Shown here: positions 5,845 to 43,040 of the stretch, piece by piece
Layout: each line of letters begins with the position of its first letter
Position numbering within the stretch: the stretch's first letter is position 1
Assembly: GCF_009834915.1 (NCBI RefSeq)
Contig: NZ_WVHS01000004.1
Location: forward strand, 496,001 to 560,000
Source of the DNA: Hufsiella ginkgonis
Lineage (GTDB): Bacteria; Bacteroidota; Bacteroidia; Sphingobacteriales; Sphingobacteriaceae
Direction: 5' to 3'
DNA length: 64,000 nt
Translations under genes and position numbers: made by a program
The notes under the pieces: model-generated
The model's input: the letters and a program-made list of their open reading frames with translations, nothing else
What the model was told of the DNA's origin: nothing
Databases searched by the model: none

Positions 5845-6108
5845 ATGATCTTGTAAACGCACCTTCCTGCTCCGCCGTTAGGCGATCACCTTACCGGCAT
5901 CGTTTTTTATGAAGATTACTGCCCGGCACATCCCATCGAAAAAATGCTGCCGGATGGCACGGTGAATATCCTGCTCGATATGCAGGACCGGCCAAAGAAG
6001 CCAGGTACGCAGGGAGGTGATCGCCGCAGGCAGCATAGCCGAAAAGTTCAGGCTCGTAGAAGATTTCCTGGTAAATAAGCTTCAAAGAGAAGCGGTGGAG
6101 CCGCCAGC
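5845..6108 (+). pseudogene. Degenerate AraC-family regulator, N-terminal remnant
   Basis: Reading from ATG 5845, codon 4 is a TAA stop. The frame then gives THLPAPPLGDHLTGIVFYED and HPIEKMLPDGTVNILLDM, which resemble the N-terminal ligand-binding region of DUF6597-type AraC regulators. After about 5999 the match moves to another frame at 6017-6108 (AEKFRLVEDFLVNKL), typical of the middle of such regulators. The HTH domain is absent. A nonsense change, a frameshift and a terminal deletion are all visible. Confidence 0.6.
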
Positions 6109-6429
6109 GATACACATATTATCGAAGCCACCGGGGAAAACTGGGAGCAAAAGCTACAGGCAAAAACGGTCCGCACTTTTTTCCGGGCCGATGGTACCTA
6201 CAACTCCGAACACCGCAACCTGAAAGACAGCATCGTATTCAACCCTTCGGACAGGTGGACCATCACCGGCGACAGCCTGATCATGACCGACACTTTTCCC
6301 AAACAGGGCGTAACTTATAAATACAAGCTCTCCATCAACGGGAATATCGCCCGGTTTAACGGCATCATCGATTTCGATGGGGACGGTAAAACCGACGACG
6401 AATACATCGGGAAACAGCGAAAACAATAA
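6109..6429 (+). pseudogene. 5'-truncated lipocalin-like protein gene
   Basis: The frame reads EATGENWEQKLQ, then FRADGTYNSEHR, and ends DFDGDGKTDDEYIGKQRKQ before the stop at 6427-6429. This looks like the body of a small lipocalin-like secreted protein of the kind Bacteroidota have, but it has no start codon or signal peptide; the frame upstream closes at a TAA (6076-6078). It directly abuts the AraC relic, so a deletion probably fused two decaying genes. The family assignment rests on pattern only. Confidence 0.5.
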
Positions 6430-6465
6430 ACTTGCTTTACTAATCATTTCCCGGGACCAGGAGAT

Positions 6466-7182
6466 TTATTTCCCCGACCTGAACGTTACCGCAGACCGCT
6501 TAATATAATCGATCATCTCATACTCATTAAGCTTGCGCACCATCTCTGAGGTTGGCCGGTACCGGTTCATAAACAGGGTCAGCGAGTCGCCGCTGAGGGC
6601 GGTAACCTGCTCCACCTTGCCGGTTGTAAACCAGTGATCGATAAAGCGATTGGCCTCGTCATCCAGCAGGCGCCGTTTCAGCCGGGCATCGCGGGCGCTT
6701 TTGCGGGTAAGGTAACTGTATAGGGCTACCGGGTTGATGGTGATCAGCGAGGCGCCACGACCGCCGGAGCGGGCCGGCCCTACCGCATCGGTAAGCTTTG
6801 GCGGCTGGTAGCTAAATTCCTTCTTAAACTGGGTACGGTAGCTGAGCGAGTCCTTCCGGTAATTGCGGGTACCGGCAACAAAGATCTCATCCAGCGTAAT
6901 GGTGCCCCTGGTGATCCTGATCCGGAGCTCCGTCCCGGGATCGGACGCCAGCGGCATCACCATCTTTTTATAACCGATGTACGAGATCCTGAGCGTATCA
7001 GGGAACCTTGCCCTGGCTGTAAACCGGCCGGCCGCATCGGTAATTGTAGTGCCGGAAGCAGAAACGATATTTGCTCCCTGTACAGGCAGGTGCGATTCCT
7101 GGTCGGTTACCGTACCTCTTATTAACTGCGCGGCTGCGTAAAACGGCAGTATCATACACATGAACAGGAAAAGATGCCTCAT
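6466..7182 (-). CDS. Carboxypeptidase-like regulatory domain protein
   Basis: A 238-residue exported protein with a signal peptide (1-18, ending AAAQ) followed by a CarboxypepD_reg-like beta-sandwich at about 20-100: LIRGTVTDQESHLPVQGANI and YIGYKKM are typical of the repeat found at the N-terminus of SusC-type receptors. The rest (100-238) is a charged helical domain ending near YEMIDYIKRSAVTF. The architecture is common in Bacteroidota outer-envelope proteins of unknown function. It has no TonB-dependent receptor barrel. Confidence 0.75.
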   Translation of the reverse strand: MRHLFLFMCMILPFYAAAQLIRGTVTDQESHLPVQGANIVSASGTTITDAAGRFTARARFPDTLRISYIGYKKMVMPLASDPGTELRIRITRGTITLDEIFVAGTRNYRKDSLSYRTQFKKEFSYQPPKLTDAVGPARSGGRGASLITINPVALYSYLTRKSARDARLKRRLLDDEANRFIDHWFTTGKVEQVTALSGDSLTLFMNRYRPTSEMVRKLNEYEMIDYIKRSAVTFRSGK

Positions 7183-7287
7183 ACTTCGCTTATTTTACCG
7201 CGAAAGTATGGAGGAACCCGCGGGCCGGCGAGCGTTTAACTTTCTTTAACAGGCAGTTTAACGGTTTTTAACACTTGAAACTGGCGT

Positions 7288-10032
7288 TTACTTTATCTCA
7301 AACCCGTAATTCCCCGCTTCTACCTGGTAGCTGCGCGTGTTACCGTTACCGGCCAATTGCTTAATACCTTTTGTATTGCTTGTTACCAGCTTGCCGCCTT
7401 CATATAGCGCTGCGCCGCTGCCCACCGCCAGTTTGAGCGTAGCCGATGAGTTAGCGGGGATAGTGACTCCATAATAGATCTTGTCGCCGTTCCGCTTCCA
7501 GGCAGATATGATGGATCCGTAAGGGCCGTCGTGTTTAGCTTCAAACCGGTCGAGCCCGGCCACAAAATGCGGTTCCAGCAACACATTTTTAAAGCCGGGG
7601 CTGGCGGGATCCGGCCTGATGCCACCCGGCGCTTTATATAACCAGGCGCCTATTTCGCCAAACATGATGTGGTTCATAGAAATATCCTGTTTCGCGTTAA
7701 TGTCCCAGTTTTCGTAGAGGGTGGTGGCGCCGTTCACGATCCACCATCCCCAGGAGGGATATGTTTCCTGTGCGGCTACGCGGTAGGCCACATCGGCATA
7801 ACCATTTTCGCTCAGCGCATTTAACAGCGCCTTGGCTCCGAGGATGCCGGTATCGAAATGGTAGTTATCGGCAGCAACGCGTTTCGCCAGTTGGGCGGCC
7901 ACTTTGCTCTTCATCGCCTCTGGTACTACGCCCCAGCAAAGCGGCGCCGCGAGCTCGGTTTGAATGCCGCTGCCGTAAATGCCGGTAGCTGTGTCGAGGT
8001 ACCTGGCGTTAATGGCGTTCCTGATCTTTGCGGCCAGTGCGGCGTACTTTTCGGCATCGGCCGCGTGGCCCAGCAGTTTTGCGGCCTTCGCCAGGATGCT
8101 GGCATCGGTGAAGTAGTAAATGGAGGAGGTAAGCTCTACCGGCGATTTCGACTTTACGGGCACCCAGTCTCCCAGTCCCCATGAGGTAAGACCCGACGGG
8201 CTTTCCTGGTCGATATGGTCCACGTAGCGCCGGATGTTAGGGTAACAGTCGCGCAGCGCTTTAATGTCGCCGTAAAACAGGTAAAGGTTCCAGGGCACCA
8301 GGGCGATGGTGCTCGTCCAGTCGGGCCCGTTGCCCCACGAATAGCCCCATCCGCCCGTAGGGATAATGGAAGGCAGCACCCCGTTCGGCTGTTGTTCATC
8401 GCGGTGATCGGCCATCCATTTTTCGTAAACGGTAATGGCATCAAAACTGTACAGGCCGGTTTCTATGGCAATGTGGGCATCGCCTGTCCAGCCGTTTTTT
8501 TCGCGCTGCGGACAATCCGTAGGATAGCCGAACAGGTTGGACAAGTAAGAATTATTCGTGGCGCTCCAGATCTTATCAATGGTCGCATTGGCAGAGCTCA
8601 CCACGCCCGCCGGCGGCACATCGCTATGCATAAAGTAGCCGGTAACGTCGCTTTGCGATAAAGTAATTGGTCTATCGCTCGTTATCTCTACGTATTGAAA
8701 GCCTTTGTAGTTAAACTTAGGCTTGAACGTTTCCGTGCCCGTGCCGCCAAGGATGAAAATATCTACCTGGAAGGGGTCCAGCTTATCTGTGGGGCGGTAA
8801 TGGTAATCGATGTTGGAAAGGTCAGCGCGGCCGTTCGGGTACAGCCGCTCGCTGTGTTTAAGGCGGAGGGTAGTGCCGGCCTCGCCCTTTACGGTGAACT
8901 GGCTTACCCCTGCAATATTCCTCCCGAGATCGAACACATAAGTGGTGTCGTTAAATTTCCGCATACTCCGTGCGGGAATGATTTCGACGTCGCGGATGGG
9001 GTGCATTGCCTGCGCCACAACATTCCGCGAAGGCGCGCTGCGGATGCCGGGGGCTTTCCATTTCGAATCGTCGAACGATACCGTATTCCAGCCCGGCTGC
9101 TCCAGGCGGCCGTCGTAGTGCTCGGCCGTATAAATGCTGTTAAAGGTGATGGGGCCGAGGGAGGTTTTCCAGTCGTTGCCTGATTTTATTACTTCCGTAG
9201 TGCCGTCTTCGTACGTAATGCGCAGATCGAGGCAAAACGCGGGCCGGTTGCGCCATGGCGCACGATCGAAGAACCATACGGCGGTAGACTGGTGGTTGTA
9301 CCATCCATTGCCCAGCAGCACGCCGATCACGTTATCGCCCTGCCGCAGCATCGGCGTCACGTCATAAGTAACGTACAGGTTGCGGCGGTCGAACCGCGTA
9401 TACATGGGGTCGAGGCGATGGTTGCCGCTTTTTGCGCCGTTCAGGTAGAGCTCGTACAAGCCGGCAGCGGCGATGTAGGCCCGCGCGCTCCGTATTCTTT
9501 TACCGGCGGTGAATTTCTTGCGGAAATAAGGCGCCCGTTTGGTATCGAGGTCCGTCGATGCGCGCCTCGAATCGAGGGGAAGAATGTCGCTGATCCAGGT
9601 ACCCTGCCAGTTCTCGCTGCCAAGCATACCGGTTTCGAAGCTGGCGATTTTCGCTTTCGCGGAGGGTTTGCGGTCCCGGTCCCAGGCCACTACGGTCCAG
9701 TAATATCTGGTAAAAGGCCGTAAAGGGCCGGCTTTATAAGTAACCAGTTGCGAAGCGGAGGGCACCATGCCGGCGCCGCCGGCTTTAGCGTCCAGCAGTT
9801 TAGCGGAATCCGTCCCGAAAAATACCTGGTAAGCCGTTTGCCTGGCGCCCCGCCGGGGATCTGCTATGCGCCAGGTAAACCTGGGGTTGAGCGCATCGAT
9901 ACCAAGCGGGTTTTCGAGGTACTCGGTCCTTAAGCTGGTAACCCTGGCTGGCGATTGAGCAAATAACAGGCCGCCAGGCAATAAAAGCATGGCAGGCAAC
10001 AACATTAAACGGGAGCATGAAGATTTCATCAT
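7288..10032 (-). CDS. Alpha-L-rhamnosidase (GH78)
   Basis: A 914-residue exported enzyme that removes terminal alpha-L-rhamnose from glycans or glycosides. The start is one of two adjacent ATG codons at 10032/10029, followed by a signal peptide ending GGLLFAQ. The N-terminal beta-sandwich domains (about 25-450) start with the GH78 phrase LRTEYLENPLGID. The (alpha/alpha)6 barrel follows, with the hallmark DCPQREKNGWTGDAH carrying the catalytic acid region. A C-terminal beta domain ends near YGFEIK. Full length for the family. It is isolated from any SusC/SusD pair in this window. Confidence 0.95.
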   Translation of the reverse strand: MMKSSCSRLMLLPAMLLLPGGLLFAQSPARVTSLRTEYLENPLGIDALNPRFTWRIADPRRGARQTAYQVFFGTDSAKLLDAKAGGAGMVPSASQLVTYKAGPLRPFTRYYWTVVAWDRDRKPSAKAKIASFETGMLGSENWQGTWISDILPLDSRRASTDLDTKRAPYFRKKFTAGKRIRSARAYIAAAGLYELYLNGAKSGNHRLDPMYTRFDRRNLYVTYDVTPMLRQGDNVIGVLLGNGWYNHQSTAVWFFDRAPWRNRPAFCLDLRITYEDGTTEVIKSGNDWKTSLGPITFNSIYTAEHYDGRLEQPGWNTVSFDDSKWKAPGIRSAPSRNVVAQAMHPIRDVEIIPARSMRKFNDTTYVFDLGRNIAGVSQFTVKGEAGTTLRLKHSERLYPNGRADLSNIDYHYRPTDKLDPFQVDIFILGGTGTETFKPKFNYKGFQYVEITSDRPITLSQSDVTGYFMHSDVPPAGVVSSANATIDKIWSATNNSYLSNLFGYPTDCPQREKNGWTGDAHIAIETGLYSFDAITVYEKWMADHRDEQQPNGVLPSIIPTGGWGYSWGNGPDWTSTIALVPWNLYLFYGDIKALRDCYPNIRRYVDHIDQESPSGLTSWGLGDWVPVKSKSPVELTSSIYYFTDASILAKAAKLLGHAADAEKYAALAAKIRNAINARYLDTATGIYGSGIQTELAAPLCWGVVPEAMKSKVAAQLAKRVAADNYHFDTGILGAKALLNALSENGYADVAYRVAAQETYPSWGWWIVNGATTLYENWDINAKQDISMNHIMFGEIGAWLYKAPGGIRPDPASPGFKNVLLEPHFVAGLDRFEAKHDGPYGSIISAWKRNGDKIYYGVTIPANSSATLKLAVGSGAALYEGGKLVTSNTKGIKQLAGNGNTRSYQVEAGNYGFEIK

Positions 10033-10107
10033 TGCAGGTCGGAACTGGTTGCTAAACCGTTGCAATCTAACAATAATTTCGACGGGTAAAATCCTGCCCC
10101 GGCCGCG

Positions 10108-10261
10108 TTAAAACCACTTATGCTTCGCCGCCGGGTTATCGCCGGTGCGTTGGAGGTGATATGCAGCTTTCCATAAATGCGCGCGACGTGATTCCGAACC
10201 GTAACGGGACGATAAACAGCCTGATCCCGATCTGGTTATGGCCTAAGCCGTTATGTAAGAA
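10108..10261 (-). pseudogene. LuxR-type HTH remnant
   Basis: On the minus strand, starting at 10261, the frame gives HNGLGHNQIGIRLFIVP. One base is missing, and the next frame gives TVRNHVARIYGKLHITS. A further shift gives AAKHKWF and a stop at 10108. Together this is the canonical recognition-helix and end region of a LuxR/NarL response regulator. Two frameshifts are visible and the receiver domain is missing. The stretch 10066-10447 between the rhamnosidase and ileS holds this relic and the ileS promoter; I see no other gene in it. Confidence 0.7.
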
Positions 10262-10386
10262 ATTGTACGCAATTACTGGTTTTTACGTATATCAGTTTCT
10301 GTTTGCTTCCCTTCGGCGCCCGAAACCGCTCCGGCGGCACGAACCTGATAATTTAACCGCGCAATGACTCATACCGGGCTTTGCGC

Positions 10387-10417
10387 TTTCAGCTTTAAGC
10401 TTATTTCCTTATCTTCG
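10387..10417 (+). promoter_or_regulatory. Candidate promoter for ileS-dksA-lspA
   Basis: TTTC at 10387-10390, a 19-base spacer, then TATCTTCG at 10410-10417. Each box has one mismatch to TTTG-N19-TAnnTTTG, and the spacing is exact. Transcription from here would begin after an earlier in-frame ATG (10364), which supports 10448 as the ileS start. Confidence 0.55.
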
Positions 10418-10447
10418 CATCCTCAAAAATGGGGAGATAACGCGCTG

Positions 10448-13400
10448 ATGTACAAAGAGTATAAATACCTTGACCTACCGCTTACCGGCAAAGAGATACT
10501 GCATTACTGGAAGCAGCATAACATCTTCGAGAAGAGCGTGTCTAACAGGCCTGTTTCGAAGCCGTATACTTTTTATGAAGGTCCGCCTTCGGCTAACGGG
10601 ATGCCCGGCATCCACCATGCCATGGCACGCTCTATCAAAGATATTTTCTGCCGCTTTAAAACGCTGAAAGGCTATCGCGTAGAGCGCAAAGGCGGATGGG
10701 ATACCCATGGCCTGCCGATCGAACTGGCCGTGGAAAAAACCCTGGGCATTACCAAGGACGATATCGGGAAGAAAATTTCCGTGGAAGAATACAATGCCGC
10801 CTGCCGCAAGGAGGTAATGAAATATACCGACGTATGGAACGACCTCACCGAAAAAATGGGGTACTGGGTAGACCTTGAAAACCCTTACGTAACCTACGAG
10901 AACGAGTACATCGAATCGCTCTGGTGGATCCTGCAGGAGTTTTATAATAAAGGACTGCTGTACAAAGGATATACCGTACAGCCATTTTCGCCGGCTGCGG
11001 GAACAGGCCTCAGCTCGCATGAGCTAAACCAGCCGGGCACATACCGCATGGTGAAAGACACGTCGGTGGTTGCCCAGTTTCACGTAAAACGCGACCAGGT
11101 ACACCCCATCATCCCGGTGCTGTTCGAAGAGGAGTTTGAGGATACTGCGATCCTGGCATGGACCACCACGCCGTGGACACTGCCATCTAACTGCGCCCTG
11201 GCCGTTGGCGCCAACGTGGTGTACGTAAAGATCAAAACCTTTAACCCGTACACCTATGCGCCGGTGAGCGTGGTGCTGGCAAAAGACCTGGTTGGCAAAT
11301 ACTTCAAAGCCGAAGGGCAGAACGCCTCTTTCCAGGATTATAAAAACGGCGATAAGGTGATCCCCTGGCAGCCGGCGGCAGAATTTACGGGCAGCGAATT
11401 GCTGGAGCTCCGGTATCACCAACTGATGCCTTATGTAATGAACGATGACCTGGAAGCAAACGCATTCCGCGTGATCGCCGGGGATTTCGTGACCACCGAA
11501 GACGGTACGGGGATCGTACATACCGCCTCTATATTCGGCGCAGACGACTTTAGGGTGGCCCGTGCAAATGGCGTTCCTTCCGTATTGGTGAAAGACGAAA
11601 ACGGCGTTGAAGTTCCTTTGGTCGACCGGCACGGGCAATTTGTTGCCGAGGTAACCGATTTCGCGGGCCGTTATGTAAAAGAAGAATATTACAGCGATGC
11701 CGAACGGGCCGATCCGGACTTTAAACCAACGGACGTACTGATCGCCATCAAGCTGAAAGAAGATAACAAAGCGTTCGACGTTAAGAAATACGAACACAGT
11801 TACCCGCATTGCTGGCGCACAGATAAGCCGGTACTATATTACCCGCTCGACAGCTGGTTTATCCGTACCACCGCCGTGAAGGATAAGCTTGTTGCGCTGA
11901 ACAAAACCATCAACTGGAAACCGGAATCCACCGGTACCGGCCGTTTTGGCAACTGGCTGGAGAACCTGGTAGACTGGAACTTGTCGCGCTCCCGCTTTTG
12001 GGGCACACCGCTCCCGATCTGGCGCACGGCCGACAATGCTGAGGAAATCTGTATCGGTTCCGTGGAGCAGCTGAAAACAAAACTCAGGGAAAGCCTCGAT
12101 ACGAAGGGTGTACATACCGATGCCCAGCTTGAAAAGATCAGATCGTACCTGCAAAAACTGGATGCCGGCGAAGGCGACCTTCATCGTCCGTTTGTAGACG
12201 ATGTGGTCCTGGTATCGAAAGCCGGTAAACAGATGTTCCGCGAGCCCGACCTGATCGACGTATGGTTCGACTCGGGCGCCATGCCTTATGCGCAATGGCA
12301 CTTCCCGTTTGAGAACAGGGAAAAATTCAAAAACGCCTACCCGGCTGATTTCATTGCGGAAGGCGTGGATCAAACCCGTGGGTGGTTCTTCACGCTTCAC
12401 GCGATAGCGGTAATGCTGAGCGAAAGCAGCGAGGAGATCAAAAAGATCAACGCGGAGATCGGCAATGAAGGGATCTCGTTTAAGAACGTGGTTTCTAACG
12501 GCCTGGTGCTCGATAAGAACGGCAACAAGATGTCGAAACGGCTCGGCAATGCCATCGATCCGTTCGAAACCATCAATCAATATAGCGCTGATGTGGCCCG
12601 CTGGTATATGATCAGCAACGCATCTCCCTGGGATAACCTGAAGTTTAACGAGGACGGGCTGGATGAGGTGCGCCGCAAATTTTTCGGCACACTGTACAAT
12701 ACCTATGCATTTTTCGCCTTGTATGCCAATATCGATGGTTTCAGCTACCGCGAAGCCGATCTTCCGCTGGCGCAGCGGCCGGAAATAGACCAGTGGATAC
12801 TTTCGCGCCTCAATACCTTAACAAGCGAAGTGGACGGGTTCTACACCGACTTTGAACCTACCCGCGCCACCCGCGCCATCCAGGAGTTCGTAGACGAGCA
12901 CCTGAGCAACTGGTATGTCCGGCTATGCCGCCGGCGTTTCTGGAAGGGCGATTATACCGACGACAAGGTCTCGGCCTACCAGACGCTGTACACCTGCCTG
13001 AACACGGTGTCGAAACTGATGTCGCCCGTGGCTCCGTTCTTTAGCGACAGGCTGTTCCTCGACCTGAATGCCGCCACCGGCAGGGAAAGCCAGGAATCCG
13101 TACACCTTACCGATTTCCCCGGATACCACGCCGCCCTGGTGAACGAAGCACTGGAAGAACGGATGTCTATCGCACAGGATATTTCTTCGCTGGTACTTTC
13201 GCTTCGCAAAAAGGTAGGGATCAATGTACGGCAGCCGCTGAATAAGATACTGCTGCCCGTGCTCGATAACAAGTTCCAGGAGAAAGTAGAAAAAGTGAAA
13301 GATCTTATTCTCTCAGAAACCAACATCAAGAATATTGAGTATATTAATGATACTTCCGGCGTTATCCGCAAGAAGATCAAGCCGAACTTTAAAGCGCTTG

Positions 13401-38163: not shown

Positions 38164-39345
38164 TCATAACTTGCTGTCATGTGCGGGTCTCGTTACCGTT
38201 AACAAAGCCACCAATCCCGCCGCGGGGCCGGGCGACAGCACCAGGTAAAGATATTCATTATCCAGGTTTCTTACCAGGATATTGAGGAGCTGGATACTTA
38301 CAATGGTGATGGCGAAGCCGATACAATTCACGATGGTGAGTGAAGTACCGCGAGCGTCCGGGGGAGCAGATTGCGCTACCAACGTGGAGAACAACGGCGA
38401 ATCGGCGGTAACCATCATGCCCCAAAAAACCAGGAAAACGACGAGCGCCACTGGCATACCTGATGTGAACAACCAGGGCGATACCAGGCAGCACATTCCC
38501 GACAAGGATAACGCGGTTGCTGCCAGCCATTTAGCACCCAGCCTGAGCGATAGTACGCCGCTGATCATGCAGCTTAATCCGCCGGAGGCGATGATGACGA
38601 AAGACCATAGCGGCACGCTGAAGCCTGCCAGGCGATAGTTGTCCCTGAACGCCGCAAGCATCACCGGCAGGAATGCCCAAAACGCATACAACTCCCACAT
38701 ATGACCAAAATAGCCTAAGGCAGCCGACCGGAAACCTGCATCGCGGAAGCCGTAAAGGAACGCACCCAGCTTGATTTTTTGCGCAGGTTTGCGGTAGGGG
38801 CCGTCCGGAACGAGGAACAAGATGATGAGGCCGCCTGTTACGGCCAGCGCCGAGGTGGCATAAATGATCGATTTCCAGGGCAGGCCGGCGGCGATGGTTT
38901 TCAGTAAATGCGGAAACGCAGTGCCCAACACCAGCGCTCCCACCAGGAATCCCAGCGACCTGCCTAACCCCCGCTGTTCGTGGTCTGAGGCGATCTTCAT
39001 CCCCACCGGGTAAATTCCAGCCAGGAAGAACCCGGTAAGAAAGCGGGAACACAAGAGCGCTGCAGGCCCGGAACCATTAACCAGGATACCCAGGTTTGCG
39101 ACGGCTGCCAGTATCGAACATACGAAGAAAACTTTGGAAGGCGAGAACCTGTCGGAAATGGTGAATACCGCAAACAGGAAAGTTCCCGCGATAAAGCCAA
39201 ACTGCACAGCGCTGGTTAAATGCGCAAGGAAACCGGGATCGAGATTAAACTCCCGGATAATATCCAGCACGATAGAGTTCCCGGCAAACCAGAGCGAAGT
39301 ACAAAAAAACTGCGAGAGAATGATGGCGGGAAGAATGCGTTTCAT
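38164..39345 (-). CDS. MFS transporter, last gene of the pxp cluster
   Basis: 393 residues with 12 predicted helices; typical MFS elements such as SDRFSPSK between helices 2 and 3 and a conserved Arg in helix 4 (CSRFLTGFFLAGIYP). It starts 22 bases after the NRAMP-like gene and on the same strand as pxpB-pxpC-pxpA, so it may import or export a related metabolite (inference). Substrate not readable. Confidence 0.87.
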   Translation of the reverse strand: MKRILPAIILSQFFCTSLWFAGNSIVLDIIREFNLDPGFLAHLTSAVQFGFIAGTFLFAVFTISDRFSPSKVFFVCSILAAVANLGILVNGSGPAALLCSRFLTGFFLAGIYPVGMKIASDHEQRGLGRSLGFLVGALVLGTAFPHLLKTIAAGLPWKSIIYATSALAVTGGLIILFLVPDGPYRKPAQKIKLGAFLYGFRDAGFRSAALGYFGHMWELYAFWAFLPVMLAAFRDNYRLAGFSVPLWSFVIIASGGLSCMISGVLSLRLGAKWLAATALSLSGMCCLVSPWLFTSGMPVALVVFLVFWGMMVTADSPLFSTLVAQSAPPDARGTSLTIVNCIGFAITIVSIQLLNILVRNLDNEYLYLVLSPGPAAGLVALLTVTRPAHDSKL

Positions 39346-39367: not shown

Positions 39368-40546
39368 CTATTTACCTGCCAGTTGTATAAGCACCCCGTA
39401 ACTCATCCACGCCATAATCGCCACCACCAGCACGCCGGCAATACTCAACCACAGCGGCTGTTTGTAATTTCCCACCAGACGTGACCTGTATGCGGCCAGC
39501 AGCATCGTAGCCAACGCCACCGGCAGGATCAGCCCGTTTAAGGCGCCCACCACCAGCAGCGTTTTTACGGGCTGGCCGATGGAGAGGAACAGCAGGCAGG
39601 AAACGGTGATAAAACCGATGATGATCGAACGGCTGTTCTTGCCGATAGCCTGGTGAAAGCTTTTTACGAAGGAAACTGATGTGTACGCGGCGCCCACCAC
39701 CGACGTGATGGCCGCCGACCACATCACCAGCCCGAAAAACTTGTAGCCGAGCTCCCCGCTCGCGAGCCTGAAAACGGAAGCGGGCGGATTTGCCGGATCG
39801 AGGACCTTGCCGCTGCTGATGACCCCGAGCGCTGCCAGGAACAGCAGGATGCGCATCAGCGACGCCAGCCCGATGGCGCTTACGGCACCCCGGTTTACAT
39901 CCCTGAGACTCTGCCGCCCGCCCATACCCGCATCTAATAAACGGTGCGCTCCCGCGAAAGTGATGTACCCCCCAACCGTTCCGCCAACAATTGTGAGCAG
40001 CGCGGTGAAGCTGAATGTTGACGGCGCCACGGACCGGGCAAGCGTTTCGGCGACCGGCGGATGACTTATCCATGCTATATAGAGGGTGAGTAAGATCATA
40101 AGTATCCCCAGGACCCTGGCGAAGTGATCCATCATTTTACCGGCTTCTTTGATAAGAAAAATGCCGATGGCGATAGCGGCGCTGATGGCGGCGCCCCGTT
40201 CAATACTACAGCCTGCGAGCACGTTAAGGCCCAGGCCCGCTCCTGCCAGGTTACCGATGTTAAATGCCATTCCGCCCACAAATACCAGCGCCGAGAGGAC
40301 ATACCCAAGTCCGGGTAACAACTGGTTGGCGATTTCCTGTGCCGGCTTGCCCGATATGACAACGATGCGCCATACATTTAACTGGGCGATGGCGTCAAGC
40401 AGCACTGAAACCAGGATAACAAACCCGAAACTGGCGCCCAATTGGGAGGTGAACACGGCAGTTTGAGTTAAAAAGCCTGGCCCTATGGCCGAAGTCGCCA
40501 TCAGGAAAGCTGCCCCTGTAATAATGCTCCAGTTACTCTTTTTCAT
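39368..40546 (-). CDS. NRAMP-fold transporter lacking the metal motif (YcsG-like)
   Basis: 392 residues, about 11 helices. The start IGPGFLTQTAVFTSQLG aligns with helix 1 of NRAMP metal carriers, but the DPGN metal-binding motif is replaced by TSQL, and the helix 6 MPH motif is not present (the region reads FAGAHRLLDAG). It overlaps the pxpA stop by 4 bases. In Bacillus subtilis the related ycsG gene sits beside ycsF-kipI-kipA. I infer transport of an organic substrate such as 5-oxoproline rather than a metal. Confidence 0.85.
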   Translation of the reverse strand: MKKSNWSIITGAAFLMATSAIGPGFLTQTAVFTSQLGASFGFVILVSVLLDAIAQLNVWRIVVISGKPAQEIANQLLPGLGYVLSALVFVGGMAFNIGNLAGAGLGLNVLAGCSIERGAAISAAIAIGIFLIKEAGKMMDHFARVLGILMILLTLYIAWISHPPVAETLARSVAPSTFSFTALLTIVGGTVGGYITFAGAHRLLDAGMGGRQSLRDVNRGAVSAIGLASLMRILLFLAALGVISSGKVLDPANPPASVFRLASGELGYKFFGLVMWSAAITSVVGAAYTSVSFVKSFHQAIGKNSRSIIIGFITVSCLLFLSIGQPVKTLLVVGALNGLILPVALATMLLAAYRSRLVGNYKQPLWLSIAGVLVVAIMAWMSYGVLIQLAGK

Positions 40547-41313
40547 CTTGATAGCGGCGCCTGAACGGTTATTCCTTCACTTTTCAGCCTGGCGCGGATG
40601 GTTTTTGCAAAGTCTACGGCATGTTCGCCATCGCCATGCAGGCAGAGCGTTTCGGCTTTCAAACTGATCACTCTATTATTTACTGAGACCACTTCGTGCT
40701 GCGTGGCCATGCGTAACGCGTGGCTAATGGCTTGCTCCTCATTGCCGATCATGGCGTTAGGCTGCGTGCGGGGAGTGAGTGCGCCATCGTCCTGGTAAGT
40801 GCGGTCGGCGAATACCTCGGAGACGCTTTGCATGCCGGCCTGCGCCGCAGCGTCCACCATCTTGCTGCCCGCCAGCACATAAACCAACAGGCCGGGGTCA
40901 AAATCGCGAACGGCTTCAACGATTGCTTTCGCCAATTCGATATCCCTGGCAGCCATGTTATACAGCGCGCCATGAGCTTTTACATGAGCCAGCCTTCCGC
41001 CGGCGGCGCGAACAAAACCGTACAATGCTCCCAACTGGTAAAGTGTAACCTGGTAGGCTTCGCGCATAGAGATCTGCATTTCGCGGCGACCAAAACCCTG
41101 GAGATCGGGCAGCCCGGGATGTGCCCCGATGGCCACGCCCCGCTCCAAAGCGGCCCTTACGGTAGCTTGCATCACTCCGGGATCTCCGGCATGAAAGCCG
41201 CAGGCGATATTCACAGAAGTGACATGTTCCAGGAGCACCAGGTCGTTTGGCATCGGGTAATTCCCGAATGCTTCACCCATATCGCAATTCAGGTCGATCG
41301 GCGGCATGTTCAA
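40543..41313 (-). CDS. pxpA: 5-oxoprolinase subunit A (LamB/YcsF family)
   Basis: 256 residues; with PxpB and PxpC forms the ATP-dependent prokaryotic 5-oxoprolinase that opens 5-oxoproline to glutamate. DLNCDMGEAFGNYPM at the start, NIACGFHAGDP (about 35), GAHPGLPD and HVKAHGALYN are the family signatures. Third gene of pxpB-pxpC-pxpA, with the NRAMP-like gene overlapping its end. Confidence 0.95.
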   Translation of the reverse strand: MNMPPIDLNCDMGEAFGNYPMPNDLVLLEHVTSVNIACGFHAGDPGVMQATVRAALERGVAIGAHPGLPDLQGFGRREMQISMREAYQVTLYQLGALYGFVRAAGGRLAHVKAHGALYNMAARDIELAKAIVEAVRDFDPGLLVYVLAGSKMVDAAAQAGMQSVSEVFADRTYQDDGALTPRTQPNAMIGNEEQAISHALRMATQHEVVSVNNRVISLKAETLCLHGDGEHAVDFAKTIRARLKSEGITVQAPLSR

Positions 41314-41323
41314 AAACAGTTAA

Positions 41324-42316
41324 CTATGAGAATTTATATTCGACAGAAGCCCTTAATTGATCAAGGCTTTTTTGACGTTCAAGATACAGGATTTCGGCTT
41401 CCCTGCGAGAGATCAGGGTAAAATAAATCGTATCGCCGGGGTAAAGTTGTCCGCAAAACGACAGATCAATGGATGCCACCGCCGCAATGCGCGGATAGCC
41501 GCCCGTAGTCTGGCAGTCGGCCATTAACAACACCGGCGTACCATCGTTGCTTACCTGGATCGTTCCCGGGGTTACCGCGGTAGACAGTAACTCTCCCGGC
41601 TGTAATTTTTCTAACACAGGCCCGTCAAGAAAATATCCCATCCGGTTGCTGCGCAACCCGATCACATAAGGTTTCGAAAGAAAAGTCCTTAATGAACTTT
41701 CTTTAAACCAATCATATTCCCGGGAGGCGATCACCCGGATCCTGTTCGCCCTTCCGTTAACGAATTGCTGCCGGGCGATATGCCAGCCGGGATAGTTAAG
41801 CCGCGTTCCGGAAAATCTTCTCAGGATCTTCCGGGATATTTCGGTGCATTCACCTTCGCTTTCGAGTATATCACCGGCTTTTAGCCTGCGGCCCTGGTAG
41901 CCTCCCAATGCGGCCGGCAGATAAGTGCTCCTGCTTCCCAATACCGGGGGAACTTTCCATCCGCCGGTAATGGCGAGGAAAATACGCCTGCACGACGGAT
42001 CGTTCATCAATTGCACGCTTCGTCCGGCGGGGATAAATACGGGTCGGCCGGCCGGTACCAGCCGGTTGTTGCAAATGAACGTGCCGCCGGATCCGGAATA
42101 GGCGATCAATACATCCGTTTCTGCCGTAAATGAAGCGCCGGCATACGTGAACTCGATAACGGCGTCGCCCGCGTTGTTGCCCACGGCCGCGTTTGCCACC
42201 TGGGCAGCCAGTTTATCCATTGCTCCCGAAACAGGAACTGCCTGCGAAAGGTACCCGAACCTTCCCTGGTCCTGTATGGTGCTGAGAATGCCGGGGTTAA
42301 TGATCTTTATCCGCAT
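41324..42316 (-). CDS. pxpC: 5-oxoprolinase subunit C (KipA / biotin-dependent carboxyltransferase-like)
   Basis: 330 residues from ATG 42316; a start at 42328 is also in frame. It opens with IKIINPGILSTIQDQGRFGY, typical of the AHS2/KipA domain, with YAGASFTAETDVLIAYSGSG and the later LLMADCQTTGGYPRIA conserved. The start overlaps the end of pxpB by about 20 bases, suggesting translational coupling. Works with PxpB and PxpA in 5-oxoproline cleavage. Confidence 0.94.
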   Translation of the reverse strand: MRIKIINPGILSTIQDQGRFGYLSQAVPVSGAMDKLAAQVANAAVGNNAGDAVIEFTYAGASFTAETDVLIAYSGSGGTFICNNRLVPAGRPVFIPAGRSVQLMNDPSCRRIFLAITGGWKVPPVLGSRSTYLPAALGGYQGRRLKAGDILESEGECTEISRKILRRFSGTRLNYPGWHIARQQFVNGRANRIRVIASREYDWFKESSLRTFLSKPYVIGLRSNRMGYFLDGPVLEKLQPGELLSTAVTPGTIQVSNDGTPVLLMADCQTTGGYPRIAAVASIDLSFCGQLYPGDTIYFTLISRREAEILYLERQKSLDQLRASVEYKFS

Positions 42317-43040
42317 AGATCTTTTCAAATTCCAGGGATGAGATGGGTTGAAACCGAATGGTATCGCCCATTTTTAATAACGAAGGCTGGGGTTTTGCTG
42401 CGTTAAACATACCCAGCGGCGTCCGCCCGACCAGCTGCCAGCCCCCGGGTGTTTCCAGCGGGTAGATCCCCGTTTGCCTGCCCGCGATACCCACGGAGCC
42501 GGCCGGTACAACTTGCCTGGGTACCTGTTTCCTGGGCGTCTCCAATGCCACGTCCATCCCCGCAAGGTAGGCGAAACCCGGCACAAAGCCGATCATGGCA
42601 ACCCGGTAAGTGGCGTTGCAATGCAAGCGGACCAGTTCGTCAGGGCTCAACTGGTGCAATTGAGCCAGTTCCTCCAGGTCGGGCCCGTACTTACCGCCGT
42701 AACATATGGGCATGTTTACCACCGTTGTTTCCGCTGTTGCAGGTTGTTGACCGGAGCTGTGCAGTTTTCGCACAAACGACGCCACGCGTTCAAATGAGTT
42801 ATTTCCTTTTAACTCGCCTGAAGCGATCACAGCGGCCGGGTCAAAGAAAACACTTAGTGTCGCGTAAGCGGGAACGGTATCCAGGAAGCCGGGAAAAGGC
42901 GTTTGGTGCAGCAACCGGTGCAGCCTGCCTACCTCCTGCATACAGGAATCGCTGATCGCATTCCCAAACTCGACGGTAACAACCTGTTCATTGAGTGAAA
43001 AAATGGCCAGGTGAGGGAAATGGGCGACCTCTTGTTGCAT
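42297..43040 (-). CDS. pxpB: 5-oxoprolinase subunit B (KipI / AHS1 family)
   Basis: 247 residues. The AHS1 domain shows the cyclophilin-like pattern: YATLSVFFDP, NMPICYGGKYGPDLEELA, MIGFVPGFAYLAGMD and TPGGWQLVGRTPL near the end. Fusion with PxpC is common in other bacteria; here they are separate, overlapping genes. It heads the cluster; no consensus promoter is seen upstream apart from an AACTTTTG at 43058-43065. Confidence 0.94.
   Translation of the reverse strand: MQQEVAHFPHLAIFSLNEQVVTVEFGNAISDSCMQEVGRLHRLLHQTPFPGFLDTVPAYATLSVFFDPAAVIASGELKGNNSFERVASFVRKLHSSGQQPATAETTVVNMPICYGGKYGPDLEELAQLHQLSPDELVRLHCNATYRVAMIGFVPGFAYLAGMDVALETPRKQVPRQVVPAGSVGIAGRQTGIYPLETPGGWQLVGRTPLGMFNAAKPQPSLLKMGDTIRFQPISSLEFEKIYADKDH

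Follow-up and report, generated by a model that had tools for sequence, protein, structure and literature searches.

A YcsG/PxpT-type Nramp-fold carrier without the metal site in a 5-oxoprolinase operon of Hufsiella ginkgonis, probably an importer of 5-oxoproline

What does a carrier of the Nramp fold transport when its gene sits in an operon for 5-oxoproline breakdown? The question is raised by a locus of Hufsiella ginkgonis within a stretch of 64,000 nucleotides, which was analysed at its full length and is referred to as the window. Published lines on related carriers conflict, pointing to 5-oxoproline in Bacillus and Corynebacterium and to Mn2+ in Bacillus and Acinetobacter. Since YcsG and PxpT are reported to be required for growth on 5-oxoproline, yet YcsG (as MntG) and MumT are reported Mn importers, the substrate is disputed, and it is this dispute, together with a second clade of carriers, that makes the locus of interest. 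With a probability of roughly four in five, we regard the window carrier as the counterpart of YcsG and PxpT, importing 5-oxoproline or a close relative for PxpABC. The 5-oxoproline role of the clade is a prior idea, PxpT having been named a 5-oxoproline carrier in 2026.

The carrier gene and its operon

The following features were located around the carrier gene:

39368..40546, minus strand: YcsG/PxpT-type Nramp-fold carrier, 392 aa, ATG start (ORF call; PF01566; 62% identity to the YcsG model 9a52)
40543..40546, minus strand: ATGA overlap of 4 nt between the pxpA stop and the carrier start (sequence)
40543..41313, minus strand: pxpA, 5-oxoprolinase subunit A (LamB_YcsF), ORF called from TTG, passing its NCBIfam cut-off
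41324..42328, minus strand: pxpC, carboxyltransferase-type subunit (CT_A_B), ORF called from TTG, overlapping pxpB
42297..43040, minus strand: pxpB (CT_C_D), above the TIGR00370 cut-off
38164..39345, minus strand: MFS transporter, 393 aa, 22 nt downstream of the carrier (Pfam search)

The operon runs pxpB-pxpC-pxpA-carrier on one strand. Against the Pfam model PF01566 (Nramp) the carrier scores 67.7 bits over residues 35-362 (cut-off 29.8), while it stays below the cut-offs of both NCBIfam metal-Nramp models (28.7 of 50; 27 of 430). A first-pass annotation had read the gene as an NRAMP-fold carrier inside a 5-oxoprolinase operon that overlaps pxpA, and both statements hold, given the Pfam score, the PxpA, PxpC and PxpB neighbours and the 4-nt ATGA at 40543-40546. 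PxpC passes the TIGR00724 cut-off and fails the stricter NF045499 (229 of 500 bits). No MFS-like gene was found in 80 other carrier loci, so that the MFS gene probably lies outside the conserved unit, and a functional role for it was set aside. The Rfam search gave no match at gathering score in the 64-kb window and hence no known Mn riboswitch, and a metal riboswitch was rejected on this ground. PF01566 matches one further protein of the Hufsiella genome, which is a canonical Nramp with DPGN and MPHN motifs and a Usp domain at its C-terminus; D-Glu cyclase has no match in this genome, and no biotin carboxylase gene is found among the neighbours of the window operon.

A lost metal site in the clade of YcsG, MumT and PxpT

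Three stretches of the carrier gene correspond to the substrate site and proton path of metal Nramps:

40472..40483, minus strand: TM1 break, codons 22-25, GPGF replacing DPGN (alignment; helix break of the model at residues 20-22)
40250..40264, minus strand: TM3, codons 95-99, FNIGN, with N at the positions of both D131 and E134 (alignment)
39962..39985, minus strand: TM6 break, codons 188-195, GGTVGGYI replacing GATVMPHN (alignment; break of the model at residue 192)

The carrier reads SAIGPGFLTQT in TM1, where metal Nramps have DPGN, and GGTVGGYITFAGAHR in TM6, where they have MPHN, in agreement with the earlier statement that DPGN and MPH are both replaced. Aligned to the canonical Nramp of the same genome, D56, N59, M230, H232, E134 and Q378 of metal Nramps become G, F, G, Y, N and G. 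The canonical metal site (TM1 DPGN, TM6 MPH, TM10 Gln) is absent from the window carrier, as is the proton-path acid E134 on TM3, which is Asn here; the exchanges of E134 and D131 to N in TM3 and of Q378 to G in TM10 go beyond those noted in the first-pass annotation. The second TM3 exchange concerns a residue of the Nramp proton path which we take to be numbered D131 and which likewise corresponds to Asn. Roles of D56, N59, M230, Q378, H232 and E134 in DraNramp are those given in PMC10185341.

These exchanges are a property of the clade. GPGF, the TM3 Asn, GGY in TM6 and an Asn in TM10 are invariant in 16 members from five phyla that were found without a motif in the search, and the six replaced positions are invariant in 114 aligned GPGF rows, about 14 of them repeats of a gene already entered; the E134 position is accordingly Asn in 114/114 of these rows. 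To judge by the aligned sequences, such invariance across the 16 members and 114 rows excludes a chance origin of the replacements. The comparison of helix 1 and 6 residues with pxp-linked homologues, proposed earlier as a check, finds GPGF and GGY shared and invariant, whereby the TM1 and TM3 invariance within the 80-locus scan described below arises partly by selection, since patterns from TM1 and TM3 were used in it.

The 197 Nramp-like proteins compared, together with the window carrier, fall into five classes: GPGF (114 rows, with 13 genes entered twice and B. badius twice), GPGT (34, likewise holding repeats), canonical DPGN (35), NRMT-like (5) and other (10). NRMT-like is our own label for rows that keep the TM1 Asp and follows the TM1 exchange reported in PMC10606218. 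At a threshold of at least 85% of the GPGF rows, TM1, TM3, TM8 and TM10 are free of conserved acids, and TM6 has a single one, residue 205 at its distal end. Among canonical rows, D56 and E134 are present in 35/35 and D131 in 30/35. The NRMT-like rows retain the TM1 Asp, where the window has Gly, in 5/5 cases and a TM3 Glu or Asp in 5/5.

An AlphaFold2 model of the window carrier, computed from a 67-sequence alignment, reached a pLDDT of 88.8, with TM1 and TM6 broken where expected. The top Foldseek match was the B. subtilis YcsG model 9a52 (62% identity, TM 0.95, VIA Z 64.2), an integrative model and not a solved structure, through which alone B. subtilis YcsG was compared. DraNramp (8e60; VIA Z 44.0) and the Mg2+ carrier EleNRMT (PDB 7qia; VIA Z 43.8) have the same fold, but only 16% and 17% identity to the window carrier, which moreover lacks the metal ligands of DraNramp. 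The APC amino-acid carriers BasC, ApcT and LAT2 share the wider fold (VIA Z 32-33) but belong to a different family at 10-13% identity, and AdiC (APC), of the same wider fold, appears at Foldseek rank 27. Among solved proteins, EleNRMT comes closest in the sequence-profile search (E 1.5e-11), and a PDB search with the single window sequence gave one weak match (E 0.00098). By its Pfam score and predicted Nramp fold (Z 44 to DraNramp), the window carrier is a member of the Nramp superfamily.

This evidence bears in two directions on the reading as an importer of divalent metal (Mn2+) whose place in the operon would reflect the metal requirement of a pathway enzyme. The fold is that of Nramp and, the YcsG model aside, the best profile and fold matches are metal carriers (EleNRMT and DraNramp). 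However, the side chains that bind the metal have been lost, the surroundings of the TM1 and TM6 breaks hold no conserved acid, and even the acids that NRMT-like rows keep in TM1 and TM3 are missing from the window clade. We consider a metal importer unlikely on these and the further grounds given below.

In a tree of 76 rows, the window carrier falls into a 24-row clade (SH-aLRT 100) on a very long branch (4.05), together with carriers from B. tequilensis (L065) and A. baumannii (L040), both of which lack the metal site in the alignment. The B. tequilensis carrier is 61% identical to that of the window and is encoded in the order pxpA-carrier-D-Glu cyclase-pxpB-pxpC, which presumably matches ycsFGI-kipIA of B. 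subtilis. The B. subtilis order is taken in part from PMC10448178. YcsG/MntG thus shares fold and operon partners with the window carrier, whereas the window operon differs from the YcsG system in its order pxpB-pxpC-pxpA-carrier, in having no D-Glu cyclase match in the genome and in the MFS gene that follows. MumT of A. baumannii (mumTLUHC) presumably belongs to the same clade via the L040 carrier, at 46% identity. PxpT of C. glutamicum is reported to be 50% identical to YcsG, and PxpG of C. difficile 46% identical to PxpT (PMC13274462); by the published identity to YcsG, PxpT belongs to the window clade. The window carrier is therefore a member of the known clade of YcsG, a MumT-type protein and PxpT, and represents no new family. 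In a published classification, MntG lies in an Nramp-related group called 'G-motif 3', for which MumT was a search seed, and the only function given in the part of that paper accessible to us is hypothesised Mn import (PMC12873925). The same source describes Nramp-related proteins without DPGN and MPH as paraphyletic to metal Nramps and calls the groups other than 'G-motif 3' and NRMT-like entirely uncharacterised.

Linkage to pxp genes and the disputed substrate

Window-type carriers (>400 bits) occur in 6/148 Bacteroidota genomes, and pxpA adjoins in 6/6. For a broader sample, two search patterns from TM1 and TM3 yielded at least 585 carrier loci, of which the best 80 were taken with 6-kb flanks; ranked by likeness to a Bacillus protein, this sample is rich in Bacillota. 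Among these best 80 loci, pxpB and pxpC were each found in 77, pxpA in 70 and D-Glu cyclase in 44, and any pxp gene was missing in three (L055, L117 on a 4.2-kb contig, and L122). The first-pass annotation had named a lack of co-occurrence with pxp genes in other genomes as grounds for giving up its reading; with pxpB and pxpC in 77 of the best 80 of at least 585 loci, the opposite is found.

A count based on whole-genome searches, with five repeated places dropped and with frames below 330 aa (L028, L196) and the window's locus excluded, placed pxp or Hyu genes at a distance of up to 1.4 kb from 21/22 GPGF and 18/21 GPGT carriers, compared to 0/35 canonical, 0/5 NRMT-like and 0/10 other rows. 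As 14 of the 22 GPGF carriers came from genomes chosen through such carriers, the linkage was recalculated after their removal and amounts to 7/8 versus 0/35 canonical (Fisher p 2.5e-7). The contrast between 21/22 in the window clade and 0/40 in canonical or NRMT-like rows speaks against a metal importer.

Exceptions mostly retain the enzymes elsewhere. The genomes of the unlinked clade loci L192, L055 and L122 hold PxpA, PxpA and HyuB, respectively. Unlinked carriers in five genomes (G111, G064, G049, G249, G207) are accompanied by PxpA elsewhere in the genome, in G249 about 4.7 kb from the carrier and in G207 beside a second carrier copy; a further genome with an unlinked carrier (G208) has HyuB and no PxpA match. 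The converse is weaker: six of 41 relatives bear pxpA, and a window-type carrier is present in two of them (G000 and G160, in the latter beside PxpB/C, L214), while G049 has a GPGT carrier and neither carrier type was found in G153, G163 and G171, with one unclassified 22.8-bit match in G163. Among the Pfam matches around the exceptional loci, no substitute transporter for pxp operons without Nramp was identified.

Some variation of the loci was observed in passing. Seven loci from Fictibacillus and Rossellomorea (L067, L071, L072, L079, L085, L086, L090) have pxpB, pxpC and the carrier, with pxpA missing from the 6-kb flanks. Klebsiella accounts for 93 of the 168 PLSDB records with a match to the carrier; in one of its plasmids (L044) the carrier is accompanied by pxpA, by genes for a putative hydro-lyase, a urea-amidolyase-type protein and a biotin carboxylase, and by a GntR regulator.

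With the metal-binding residues lost and genes for 5-oxoproline breakdown adjoining, the most likely role of the window carrier is import of 5-oxoproline. A growth requirement on this compound has been demonstrated by others in its relatives: PxpT of C. glutamicum is needed for growth on 5-oxoproline, the deletion being complemented, and the GntR repressor PxpR binds 5-oxoproline (PMC13274462), while B. subtilis without ycsG is reported to be unable to use 5-oxoproline (Niehaus 2017, as cited in PMC13274462). The organic-substrate branch devoted to 5-oxoproline or a related lactam, as suggested in the first-pass annotation, is thus favoured by linkage, by kinship to YcsG, by the published YcsG and PxpT mutants and by the fact that the metal site and the conserved acids surrounding it are lost. 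The authors of the PxpT study state for their part that metal transport by PxpT cannot be excluded (PMC13274462).

We propose a mechanism in which a secondary carrier of the Nramp fold (LeuT/APC superfamily) would bring in 5-oxoproline (pyroglutamate) or a relative such as the D-isomer, the ring of which PxpABC would then open with ATP to yield glutamate. The anionic substrate may be placed between the broken helices TM1 (GPGF) and TM6 (GGTVGGY), where backbone amides of the two glycine-rich breaks and the invariant neutral polar residues Q28, N99, Y194 and N337 would hold it. APC amino-acid carriers hold the carboxylate at a GxG break, and it is by analogy to these that we infer the binding mode, with import as the presumed direction.

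Divalent metal transport, which the first-pass annotation had regarded as incompatible with its reading, has indeed been claimed for YcsG/MntG (PMC10448178) and MumT (PMC5050338); the claims stand on cellular Mn, growth and promoter data, and the parts of both papers at hand contain no work on purified protein. Overexpression of ycsG raises cell Mn, and the protein was renamed MntG; no mntH mntA ycsG triple mutant could be obtained, the ycsG promoter is bound by MntR, and the earlier 5-oxoproline phenotype of ycsG is suggested to be possibly polar (PMC10448178). Deletion of mumT lowers cell Mn and causes a growth lag that is relieved by Mn (PMC5050338). An Nramp-model match above 300 bits is found beside the window-type carrier in 13/30 genomes, and none of this canonical strength was seen in 17/30, which counts against the 5-oxoproline reading. 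The Hufsiella genome has its own canonical Nramp and the window no known Mn riboswitch, both of which speak against a metal importer.

The MumT case can be compared with the A. baumannii locus L040, where positions 5956-12160 encode the carrier, LamB_YcsF (PxpA), D-Glu_cyclase, a protein joining CT_C_D and CT_A_B (PxpBC), in which no further Pfam family was found, and a biotin carboxylase that carries a biotinyl domain; the biotin carboxylase gene sets this locus apart from the window operon. L040 stems from another strain than the published MumT, its identity as the mum locus being derived from gene order. Should this identity hold, mum would represent a pxp operon that includes D-glutamate cyclase. 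MumT has been published as a Mn importer in a urea operon, affecting Mn content and growth on urea (PMC5050338), and the urea phenotype is something that the reading as a pxp operon cannot explain away. The Mn effects of YcsG/MntG and MumT are probably indirect. Public records from Deinococcota, Bacillota and Pseudomonadota label the clade as divalent metal transporter, a label that by comparative evidence is probably wrong. If so, a supposed Mn importer drops out of models of metal homeostasis.

Two further readings keep 5-oxoproline or a similar compound as the substrate. In the first, modelled on metal-citrate carriers, 5-oxoproline would travel along with a divalent metal or as a complex with it, which would account for both the 5-oxoproline and the Mn phenotype of YcsG; with no acidic ligand conserved near the site, though the carboxylate of the substrate could itself serve as one, we rate it as the least probable of the readings weighed here. 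Slightly more credit, though still less than a metal importer, is due to export of 5-oxoproline or transport of a different lactam or glutamate derivative (5-oxo-D-proline, hydantoins), the transported compound also serving as the substrate of Pxp. This reading draws on the D-glutamate cyclase genes present at 44 loci in the sample formed by the best 80 of at least 585, and on the HyuA/HyuB-type enzymes that adjoin the second clade, enzymes whose relatives are reported to include hydantoinases and a caprolactamase (PMC8453981). On the other hand, YcsG and PxpT are reported to be needed on external L-5-oxoproline (PMC13274462), and the genome of the window has no D-Glu cyclase match.

A second clade beside lactam-opening enzymes

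The GPGT carriers (TM1 GPGT, TM6 TVVPYN or alike), with 21-22% identity to the window carrier in the three rows compared, lie within 1.4 kb of PxpAB(C) or HyuA/HyuB in 18/21 loci, and this parallel in a distant clade also speaks for the 5-oxoproline reading of the window carrier. The gene combinations are:

GPGT carrier with PxpA and PxpB: Bacteroidota genomes
GPGT carrier with PxpA, PxpB and D-glutamate cyclase: Bacillota (L185, L186, L188, L190)
GPGT carrier with HyuA/HyuB: three haloarchaeal plasmids (L039, L046, L047)
GPGT carrier with HyuA/HyuB: two Bacteroidota (L128, L131)

Further pxp- or Hyu-linked GPGT loci are L009-L019 and L025. PxpABC and HyuAB belong to separate Pfam families, so that a single type of carrier accompanies two types of enzyme, and the common theme of the PxpAB and HyuAB enzymes is ring opening of 5-oxoproline-like lactams. 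In the CC0, CC BY and CC BY-SA literature, we found no paper linking Nramp to both hydantoinase and oxoprolinase. The residues of the clade agree with those of a published 'orphan' outgroup, for which substitutions to Y/N in TM3, V/Y in TM6 and T in TM6a are described (PMC10606218), the identification of the two being our own and made from the sequences.

Both lactamase-linked clades have Gly at the D56 position, Asn at E134 (147/148 rows) and Tyr at H232. Numbered as in the window carrier, G22, G91, N99 and Y194 occur in 148, 148, 147 and 148 of the 148 GPGF and GPGT rows (repeats included), and in 0, 0, 0 and 1 of 40 canonical and NRMT-like rows. G22 is also found in 10/10 and N99 in 6/10 of the 'other' rows, which have no pxp or Hyu linkage, so that only G91 and Y194 look specific. 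Among Nramp-related proteins with Gly for the TM1 Asp (e.g. GPSK), those of L152, L153 and L208-L210 show no pxp or Hyu neighbour at up to 1.4 kb. The GPGF and GPGT clades stand apart in a quick tree, yet a single clade is not rejected (AU p 0.76, the constrained tree scoring higher), and one or two origins are accordingly both possible. The two clades were not merged, as the quick tree kept them apart, in spite of the AU value.

That both clades are lactam and not metal carriers, each tied to ATP-dependent lactam-opening enzymes, is a proposal to which we give about even odds. If true, the family would have acquired metal transport from ancestors carrying organic solutes, or the two functions would be sister to each other; MntG and MumT would affect Mn only indirectly, and the mum operon described for urea would instead serve D-glutamate/5-oxoproline. 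A common ancestry of metal Nramps and carriers of amino-acid derivatives would further be suggested. Simple residues and a little-studied second clade are now available for testing the substrate question.

Two arrangements of GPGT carriers differ from those listed. At L128 (8179-10644, minus strand) the carrier is part of an 822-aa frame, of which residues 417-758 form the Nramp part and the portion before residue 417 has no Pfam match. In Savagea serpentis (L063, 1004-7218), a GPGT and a GPGF carrier flank one and the same pxp cluster.
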